A DNA stretch of 64,000 nt, from the NCBI GenBank assembly GCA_900315165.1, contig OMXZ01000003.1, positions 1 to 64,000 of the forward strand. The letters run 5' to 3'. Positions 10,508 to 59,637 of the stretch are shown one piece after another. A program made the translations under genes and the position numbers. Under the pieces are notes generated by a model that had not been told where the DNA came from, made no database searches, and saw nothing but the letters and a program-made list of their open reading frames with translations. This DNA is from an uncultured Actinomycetes bacterium (lineage in GTDB: Bacteria; Actinomycetota; Coriobacteriia; Coriobacteriales; Atopobiaceae). The number at the start of each line of letters is the position of its first letter. Within the stretch, counting starts at the first letter, position 1.

Positions 10508-10682
10508 ACGACAACGAACACGTAGCTGCTGGCAAGGGCTACGTAGGCCCGGACAACAATAACGTCGATCTGCGAGCTAGGAAGTTCCCTAGGTCGCAGA
10601 TCGACGTGTTCGTCGTCGGCGGCTACGCGTTCGTCGTCGGCGGCTACGCGTTCGTCGTTGGCGATTACGTGTTCGTTGTCAG
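10508..10682. repeat. Dyad-symmetric 21-bp word array A
   Basis: An imperfect hairpin of about 170 nt built from 21-nt units that share a word like GACGACGAACGCGTAG. On the minus strand the right arm has four units; the left arm has three degenerate units. The inner arms match closely (10564-10581 with 10588-10605, core GTCGATCTGCGA) and the outer ends match too (10510-10525 with 10665-10680). The outer and inner centres differ by 10.5 bp, which is exactly one extra 21-nt unit on the right arm. It sits between the DUF975 start and the 3' end of the GH1 pseudogene. The remaining intergenic sequence (10324-10507) shows no gene. Confidence 0.85.
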
Positions 10683-36931: not shown

Positions 36932-36957
36932 CGGCACCTCCCGGGCCTCAATTAACA

Positions 36958-37007
36958 TATACCAACTTATACCAACTTATACCAACTTATACCAACTTAT
37001 ACCAACA
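36958..37007. repeat. Five tandem 10-bp repeats in divergent promoter region
   Basis: TATACCAACT is repeated head to tail four times, then TATACCAACA. Looser copies (CATACACCG) follow at 37007-37034. The 10-bp period is about one helical turn, so each copy presents the same DNA face. The array lies 27-76 bp before the ATPase start and about 90 bp before the AlbA-type gene. Confidence 0.9.
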
Positions 37008-37098
37008 TACACCGTTTTGCACTCACATACACCGACTTACACTCCGTGTGCGCCTCTATACTTCTGCTAAGAGAGCGCCCCGCAGAGGAGGTCAGCTG

Positions 37099-57509: not shown

Positions 57510-57962
57510 ATGCTCAAAGTCACCATTATCGCCATAGGCAAGCTCAAGGAACACTTCTGGAAGGACGCCTGCTCCGAGTACTTGAAGCGGCTCGGCGCCT
57601 ATGCCAAGGTCACCGTGCGCGAGCTGCCCGACAGCACGCCCGCGCAGGAAGAGAAGCTCATCCTCTCGACGCTCGACACCCTCCCCCGCGGCGCGCACGT
57701 CATCCTCCTCGACATCGGCGGAAACCTGGTCTCGAGCGAGGACCTGGCCCGCCGCTTGGACGGCCTCGCTGTGGGCGGCACCTCGGACGTGGTCTTCATC
57801 ATCGGCGGCAGCGATGGGGTGACGGCAGCCATACGCGCCCGAGCCGACGAGCGCATCAGCTTCGGCCGCATCACCCTGCCCCACAACCTCGCCCGCGTCG
57901 TCCTGCTCGAGCAAGTCTACCGCGCCTGCAAGATCAGCCGCGGCGAGCCCTATCACAAGTAG
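57510..57962 (+). CDS. rlmH: 23S rRNA pseudouridine-1915 N3-methyltransferase
   Basis: A 150-residue SPOUT methyltransferase, slightly shorter than the usual 159. The opening LKVTIIAIGKLKEHFW, the LDIGGNLVSSEDLA strand, the SAM-binding FIIGGSDGV knot loop and the terminal KISRGEPYHK are all diagnostic. The ATG at 57510 has weak ribosome-site support (GGGAAG). It stands alone, divergent from the GGDEF-EAL gene and convergent with pelG across array B. Confidence 0.95.
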   Translation: MLKVTIIAIGKLKEHFWKDACSEYLKRLGAYAKVTVRELPDSTPAQEEKLILSTLDTLPRGAHVILLDIGGNLVSSEDLARRLDGLAVGGTSDVVFIIGGSDGVTAAIRARADERISFGRITLPHNLARVVLLEQVYRACKISRGEPYHK

Positions 57963-57991
57963 GCACACACGTCTGGATTTCCCGCCCCCGC

Positions 57992-58183
57992 GACGACAGC
58001 CACGTAGGTTCCGACGACAAGCTCGTAGGTCCCGACGACAAGCTCGTAGGCGCGAACAACAAGCACGCCGTTTTGCGAGCTAGCACGGGCCGTAGGTCGT
58101 AAATCGGCGTATTCGTCGTCGGGAGGTACGTGGTCGTCGTCGGAGGCTACGTGGTCGTCGTCGGGAGGTACGTGGTCGTCGTC
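57992..58183. repeat. Dyad-symmetric 21-bp word array B
   Basis: Four 21-nt units on the left arm (anchors 57992, 58013, 58034 and about 58055; word like CGACGACAAGCTCGTAGG) face four inverted units on the right arm (ends 58120, 58141, 58162 and 58183). Every pair is symmetric about 58087.5. The unit resembles that of array A and the loop regions also match (GCGAGCTAG... and ...GTAGGTCG). It fills the 241-bp gap between convergent rlmH and pelG. Confidence 0.9.
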
Positions 58184-58203
58184 GGAAGACGCGCAAACCC
58201 CAC

Positions 58204-59637
58204 TCAGGCGCGCTCGCTGAGGCGCTTCAGGAGGCCACGGCGCTCGACCGCCACAAGCGGCTGCTCCGACAGGATCATATAGGGCAGGTTGCGCGTGAAG
58301 AGGTAGAGGCGAAGCCACGCCACGAAGAGGAAGACCAGCGCCCCCACCACAAAACCCGCCGCGTAGTCCTCGACGGGCAGCCACAGGACGGCCGCCAGCG
58401 ACCCGAGCGTGGTCACCAGGGCGAAAGCCACCGTAGCGATGGTGGCGCCATGGGTGTCGTCGAAGTAGAGGTCCATGAGGGTCACGACGTTGCCGATGGA
58501 ATAGGCACAGTAGCCGACGCACAGAAGGATGAAATACGAGCTCATGGCCGGGGTGAAGCCCAAGGGCAGCTGCTCCAGGAAGGCCGACCCCACCGAGATG
58601 CAGAGGGCTGAGGCCAGCAGTTGCTTGCGGGCCAGGTCGCCCAACTCGCGGTCCAGCACCATGAGCATCTCTTCCTGCGTGGCGTCGATGTCCACGATGG
58701 AGCCCGTGGTGTTGAAGAGGTCGTAGTAGCGCCGATAGACGGGATAGAAATTGACCTCGGCCGACGCCACGAAGGTAATCTGCGTGATCAGCCCCGACAG
58801 GAAGGCGAAGAAGGCCGGGATATCGTGTTCGGGCGAGGCGTAGTAGAGCGGGGCGATCTCCTTGCCCAGGGGGCCGAACCACGATATCGCGATGTAGGAA
58901 AAGACCGCCACGTAGTTGCAGACGCCGATGGCCACCAGGTCGCGGTGGTCGGCAACCCAGGCCAGCCACAGGAGATAGTGTTCCTCGGCATGGGGGAAGA
59001 AGCGGTAGAGCAGGGCGATGCTGTAAACCATCATGATGCCGTAGCCCAGGGTGACGCAGGCGAGCAGGAGCCTGAGCTGGGCGCCCCAGACCAGGCAGGT
59101 GGTCAGCGACGCTGCGATGGCCGTGCCCATGGAGATGAGATAGCCCGTCAGGATACCGCGGTAGTCCTTGATGGCCGACAGGTAGGTCGTGGAGATCCAC
59201 ACCACGATGAGCTCGCCGAACAGCATCACGTTGAGCATGACGATCATCGAGCCCTGCCCCGTCGCGAGCTGGAAGGAAAGGCAGAGGACGACGCCCACGG
59301 GCAGGAGCACGGCGAGCGCCCCTTCGAAGGAGGGCAGGACCAGGTCCTCCCGCCCCTCGTAGAGCATGTCGGACACATAGCGCGTGAGCGGCATGGTGAT
59401 GAAACCCGTCAGCACCAGCGAGCCCAGGAGCGCGTAGGTGATCATGCAGGCCAGAAGGTCGCGCTCGTGGCTGGAGATGCCGAAGGATATGCCGATTGCC
59501 TGCACGGCGAAGAGGAAGCCCATGCCGAGCAGCGTGGGCCCCGTCACGATGACGCCGGTGAAGGCGTAGGCGCGCAACTTGCTGATGATGCCCTTACGCG
59601 CGTAGAGTTTCCTCAGCTCGAATCCGATGCCGGCCAT
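58204..59637 (-). CDS. pelG: Pel exopolysaccharide membrane transporter
   Basis: A 477-residue polytopic protein with about 12 membrane helices, of the PelG family within the MOP flippase superfamily. It opens with GIGFELRKLYARKGIISKLR, the usual PelG start, and contains PLTRYVSDMLYEGR and SAIKDYRGILTGYL loops. With PelD and PelE it forms the inner-membrane synthase and export complex for the Pel polysaccharide. GAGGGGAGGGG precedes the ATG. It is last in the pel operon, 11 bp after pelF. Confidence 0.92.
   Translation of the reverse strand: MAGIGFELRKLYARKGIISKLRAYAFTGVIVTGPTLLGMGFLFAVQAIGISFGISSHERDLLACMITYALLGSLVLTGFITMPLTRYVSDMLYEGREDLVLPSFEGALAVLLPVGVVLCLSFQLATGQGSMIVMLNVMLFGELIVVWISTTYLSAIKDYRGILTGYLISMGTAIAASLTTCLVWGAQLRLLLACVTLGYGIMMVYSIALLYRFFPHAEEHYLLWLAWVADHRDLVAIGVCNYVAVFSYIAISWFGPLGKEIAPLYYASPEHDIPAFFAFLSGLITQITFVASAEVNFYPVYRRYYDLFNTTGSIVDIDATQEEMLMVLDRELGDLARKQLLASALCISVGSAFLEQLPLGFTPAMSSYFILLCVGYCAYSIGNVVTLMDLYFDDTHGATIATVAFALVTTLGSLAAVLWLPVEDYAAGFVVGALVFLFVAWLRLYLFTRNLPYMILSEQPLVAVERRGLLKRLSERA

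Follow-up and report, generated by a model that had tools for sequence, protein, structure and literature searches.

The window analyzed here, a 64-kb stretch of DNA, comes from genome G000 (88.7% complete) and contains two convergent genes near its right end, rlmH encoding a SPOUT methyltransferase (57510 to 57962, plus strand; PF02590, E = 3.7e-47) and pelG (58204 to 59637, minus strand; PF16933, E = 5e-113). An inverted-array element, array B (57992 to 58183), fills the gap between them, beginning 29 bp past the rlmH stop and ending 20 bp from the pelG stop; its placement between these two genes in a preliminary description of the sequence is thus accurate. By the similarity of its rlmH to those of Collinsella and Slackia, the host belongs to the Coriobacteriales, and probably to the Atopobiaceae. 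The element consists of 4+4 motifs at a strict 21-bp step. Left motifs start at 57992, 58013, 58034, and 58055 and their mirrored right counterparts end at 58183, 58162, 58141, and 58120, so that each pair sums to 116175, i.e., a common center at 58087.5, exactly as first described. Three whole units make up each arm: on the plus strand, left units 3 (outermost, GACGACAGCCACGTAGGTTCC; 57992 to 58012, 22.4 bits under the unit position weight matrix [PWM]), 2 (58013 to 58033, 26.2 bits), and 1 (58034 to 58054, 26.0 bits), and on the minus strand, right units 1 (58121 to 58141, 25.4 bits), 2 (58142 to 58162, 28.9 bits), and 3 (outermost; 58163 to 58183, 25.4 bits). In both arms, the innermost motif is an incomplete unit (58055 to 58068 on the left, 58107 to 58120 on the right) that runs into and is fused to a central palindromic core (58066 to 58109; left half, CGCCGTTTTGCGAGCTAG), which is conserved between genera and shows covariation (alignments A1/A2). 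Within the array, PWM scores are 20 to 29 bits; a single step beyond it, they are about −20 to −40. A scan for symmetry centers returned 116175 as the best sum, with 65 of 98 positions complementary. The window holds a second copy, array A (10510 to 10680; two left and three right units, center 10584.5), between two minus-strand genes and behind a glycoside hydrolase family 1 gene. Separately, an AT-rich short tandem array with a 10-bp period (AACTTATACC) lies between divergent genes at 36954 to 37044.

A single-locus reading of array B is too narrow, as the array is one copy of a dispersed family. BLAST with array B found further copies across G000, and a covariance model built from 15 copies (R2) recovered 23 full copies and one partial copy in 2.3 Mb. 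A hairpin scan located 27 sites in 1.02 Mb of the genome, array B among them, whereas 0.36 Mb of shuffled sequence yielded no site. Most copies are of the 21-bp type, with a core of ∼44 bp (CGTCGATTTGCGAGCTAGGAGG plus its mirror), arms of two to four whole units, and sharp ends; three (C49, C35, and C22) are of a longer-centered type that also occurs in the sister species G002. Across the family, the center is more conserved than the outer ends and unit number is variable. The unit consensus is GACAACGACCTCGTAGCCCCC, and the 96 units that share this motif have columns ranging from 98% invariant (C12, G13) to nearly random (positions 9, 19, and 21). Units scoring above 17 bits fall nearly all inside array elements (362 kb scanned). 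A coding origin of the 21-nucleotide unit as seven codons was rejected, since the conserved columns follow no codon-position pattern. Just behind one element and upstream of a long gene, we also observed a sub-threshold T-box-like match (L003, 1813 to 1907 in G000:C26; 37.5 bits, E = 1.6e-5).

Relatives carry the same core with other arms. G002, in the same genus as G000, and G035 each hold about 10 copies with the same core and different arm units, spaced at 20 to 21 bp in the G002 type and at 17 and 22 bp in G035 arms; G009 and G079 have one core-family copy each. The core model matched 10 of 397 genomes of the order, three of them in multiple copies, and essentially none outside it; the survey scored only the best candidates per genome, and absence from the other genomes is therefore not proven. 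Single weak matches outside the order (G688) were dismissed as chance. Copies C49 and C35 of G000 are orthologous to copies in G002 with different unit numbers (e.g., G000:C49 versus G002:C26), so the comparison of unit number proposed in the preliminary description reveals variation even between orthologs. Several G002 copies are missing from the matching G000 gap. Some individual loci add detail: in G002:C16, two elements flank a gene resembling, by eye, an AbiEi-like antitoxin (L140, 6340 to 8365), and in the matching G000 interval a lone element separates a GDPD gene from its neighbor; on the same contig, what by eye is a HigBA-type toxin-antitoxin pair (L207, 1840 to 2720) occupies the place where G000 has copy C27b. 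The G079 element (L145, 270 to 379 in G079:C114) is of the G000 21-bp type in another genus, reflecting either horizontal transfer or MAG contamination.

Other genomes repeat this architecture with different unit sequences. When 400 kb of G004 was scanned for hairpins irrespective of sequence, one element emerged whose arms are built of a different unit. A pattern search with this unit returned 191 instances in G001 and 48 in G004, two genomes from the genus of the window, and none in G000 or G002; G081 has one further element of this type. The G001/G004 arrays are mirrored with a step of 31 bp (68 of 117 spacings) or 41 bp (39 of 117), two values one helical turn apart, and their inner gap is 61 bp in 17 of 20 elements. 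As in the G000 unit, conserved stretches of the G001/G004 unit occur in blocks; the centers of the G001/G004 elements are not long palindromes. A third kind of unit, at a 41-bp step, is present 479 times in G130, to which we were led by a core pattern search (TGCGNGCT...AGCNCGCA) whose hits were otherwise mostly at chance level. Tandem hairpins with a core-like motif occur in G155, where a series CGCCGANTGCGCGCT...AGCGCGCACTCGGCG with spacers GTCCGTCTGGACGAGAA lies behind a gene (L281, G155:C1:74800-76000) and is probably a distant form of the core. Treating the arrays of G000, G001/G004, and G130 as one class rests on architecture and position, without sequence homology. Many G001 contigs (C11, C16, C24, C25, C28, C30, and C35) start inside an array; the repeats thus interrupt assembly, and true copy numbers exceed those counted.

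This distribution bears on the alternative that each array is a functionless product of neutral tandem-repeat expansion within a chance palindrome. Unit number does differ between orthologous copies (L130 versus L134), and neighboring units are slightly more alike (67.7% identical) than units of different copies (63.5%), but against it stand the recurrence of one architecture at numerous unrelated loci and across several genera, the near invariance of some columns, and the near confinement of units to the elements. Because a family exists, we give this explanation almost no weight.

Array position relative to genes, called on stretches of the genomes with our own hexamer-based finder, is skewed. 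The 42 placeable copies of the core family lie in 18 convergent, 23 tandem, and 1 divergent gaps, and the 20 G001/G004 elements lie in 7, 11, and 2, respectively. Pooled (25 convergent, 34 tandem, and 3 divergent), the 62 elements include 3 in divergent gaps against ∼15 expected from intergenic length (∼24%), and within tandem gaps a copy is usually nearer the 3′ end of the upstream gene. The 3′-end position claimed for array B therefore holds for the whole family, although the scarcity in divergent gaps could merely reflect selection against promoter damage. A role specific to pel, as first proposed, finds no support: genes beside the other copies are unrelated and without common function, no terminator-like site (G+C-rich stem plus U-tract) was found at 57700 to 58500, and in G002 rlmH has neither an array nor pelG behind it and is followed by another gene. 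Two elements lie directly behind transposase genes of IS256 type (Transposase_mut) and IS1595 type (L086, 5666 to 5815, and L143, 1341 to 1463). Neighboring genes were separated at 3 of 5 array junctions versus 6 of 25 controls, too few to conclude from. Since copies are often found next to points of gene gain or loss, an attC-like cassette site was considered, and it was set aside as no attC consensus was seen.

A location at gene ends would also suit a bidirectional RNA element, a long hairpin that is transcribed from either side and terminates transcription or protects 3′ ends, and REP repeats offer a precedent for RNA roles (PMC3733652). Folded as RNA, array B, predicted in the preliminary description to form a hairpin of ∼190 nucleotides, is very stable (−120.8 kcal/mol, z = −6.0), but most pairs of the minimum-energy fold are one unit out of register (sum 116154, 42 pairs), with 16 pairs in the centered register. 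The arms themselves do not vary as a stem would. Mirror units in G000 are 64.3% identical, against the 63.5% for units of different copies; within-copy arm pairing is below column shuffles for 15 G000 copies (499 of 500 shuffles matched or exceeded it), near the shuffled level for 19 copies, and below shuffles in G035; and the two arms have matching second spacers in 2 of 14 G001/G004 elements versus 6 expected. On the sense strand, G-U pairs show no excess over A-C (19 versus 16 in the core). Mirror identity, arm pairing, spacer disagreement, and the G-U/A-C balance, all negative, argue against the arms as a selected RNA stem, and with it against the hairpin of the preliminary description as a selected feature. 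The core does covary in G000 (p ∼0.005) and in a mixed alignment (0 of 500 shuffles reached the observed value, which is inflated by relatedness), and no core covariation was found in G035 alone. This signal favors an RNA element, but it may reflect a cruciform or single-strand role of the center or repair between palindrome halves. Array B has no Rfam match at the gathering score, and a permissive search over the elements gave only sub-threshold matches of microRNA type. With the U-tract lacking and the G001/G004 centers not being long palindromes, an RNA element is in our judgment improbable.

The unit columns instead resemble those of binding sites. Information per column ranges from near zero to nearly two bits, and the conserved columns form blocks; neutral decay of a spread repeat would be uniform and therefore does not account for them. 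Steps of 20 to 21, 31, and 41 bp are close to two, three, and four helical turns and recur in five genomes, which agrees with the earlier suggestion of a protein able to reach all units from the same face. The G035 steps (17 and 22 bp) break this phasing and count against such rows, and since few independent spacing changes lie behind the 21/31/41 series, the phasing could partly be chance. From site-like conservation and the lack of arm covariation, we infer that the arms are rows of duplex-DNA sites for a putative sequence-specific protein. Recognition sites spaced regularly at 21 bp (about two turns) in both mirrored arms, separated by the short palindromic core, would let several protein molecules align on one duplex face per arm, and the proteins of both arms together could form one symmetric complex at a transcription-unit boundary. 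The likeliest role of such a complex would be that of a barrier to read-through from either direction or of an anchor that fixes supercoils; as the core covaries, the center may in addition have a single-strand or cruciform function. We modestly favor this account of array B, as a family copy whose mirrored arms would bear rows of a putative protein in a symmetric boundary complex, over the alternatives.

The foremost of these is a non-autonomous mobile element (MITE/BIME-like), in which units and core would be transposase or recombinase sites, the copies would have no host function, and the 3′-end bias would reflect tolerance. High copy number with a patchy distribution (multi-copy in 3 of 397 genomes by the core model), lineage-specific subfamilies, fast turnover of unit sequence between species, positions not common to G000 and G002 at several loci, and copies adjoining IS256- and IS1595-type transposase genes all fit mobility. 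Against it, the outer ends are not fixed and the number of units differs among copies, conservation peaks at the center and not at the ends, and no target-site duplication was visible by eye in 19 copies. Comparison of G000 with G002 recovered no clean empty site because the intergenic flanks are too diverged. Searches of phages, plasmids, and a viral collection gave no match at the sensitivity used. A genome-wide transposase search, which covered PF01797 (Y1/RAYT) only, found none in G000 (88.7% complete) or G002, and a RAYT-mobilized REP was rejected on this basis; PF01797 is present in G009, G021, and G035. We regard a mobile element as possible though rather unlikely. More tentative still is the extension of the protein-row account to a family-wide, Atopobiaceae-like class, in which a putative protein would bind helically phased mirrored arrays at transcription-unit ends, with site and step (two, three, or four turns) species specific and the architecture kept, as a new boundary or anchoring system of rapidly evolving specificity.

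Should the arrays serve one protein as rows of docking sites, each chromosome would carry from ∼8 (G004) to probably ∼100 (G130) platforms at gene ends. With motif and spacing differing by species, site-protein coevolution could then be studied in a tractable setting, and a connection of palindromic extragenic repeats with the boundaries of transcription units could be put to the test. The literature searched describes no REP system for this group. That literature, with most subscription journals outside its scope, also yielded no description of such repeats in this bacterial group.

Several known systems share parts of this architecture. Eukaryotic foldback transposons, like Tn7-type ends with their repeated transposase sites, have inverted arms of ∼20- to 30-bp tandem sub-repeats. 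The arrays are likewise inverted arms of tandem sub-repeats, but their conserved part is the center, and neither distinct outer ends nor a target duplication or transposase was seen. YPAL, BOX, and NEMIS are small dispersed bacterial palindromes near gene ends that are stable as RNA and have been argued to act as RNA. Our elements are similarly dispersed near gene ends with a stable RNA fold; unlike these, they are mirrored fixed-step unit arrays, and the arm data do not support RNA action. REPINs, which are REP doublets, resemble the arrays in having two inverted recognition motifs, the capacity to form a hairpin, and spread through the genome, but the arrays have ∼4 to 12 units instead of a doublet and do not preserve inter-arm pairing. 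REP/BIME sequences of Escherichia coli, Pseudomonas, and Stenotrophomonas are dispersed extragenic palindromes in inverted groups, species specific and protein binding (PMC3733652, PMC2817692). REP repeats cluster near 3′ ends, in gaps between convergent or unidirectional genes (PMC3733652), as do the extragenic arrays described here. A REP/BIME unit is a 20- to 40-bp palindrome with an unpaired GTAG or CGTC tag at its foot, whereas each arm here comprises a row of evenly spaced units, all in the same orientation, and the two arms flank a single conserved core. The units carry CGTAG and have a weak dyad, and the core begins with CGTC or CGCC, but a tagged hairpin is not the repeating module, and no RAYT-type transposase was found in G000 or G002. 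Dispersed inverted-array repeats constitute a real, unusual, and apparently undescribed class whose nearest known kind is REP/BIME, and because REP repeats have the same 3′-end bias and BIMEs bind proteins (PMC2817692), a BIME-like function is plausible.
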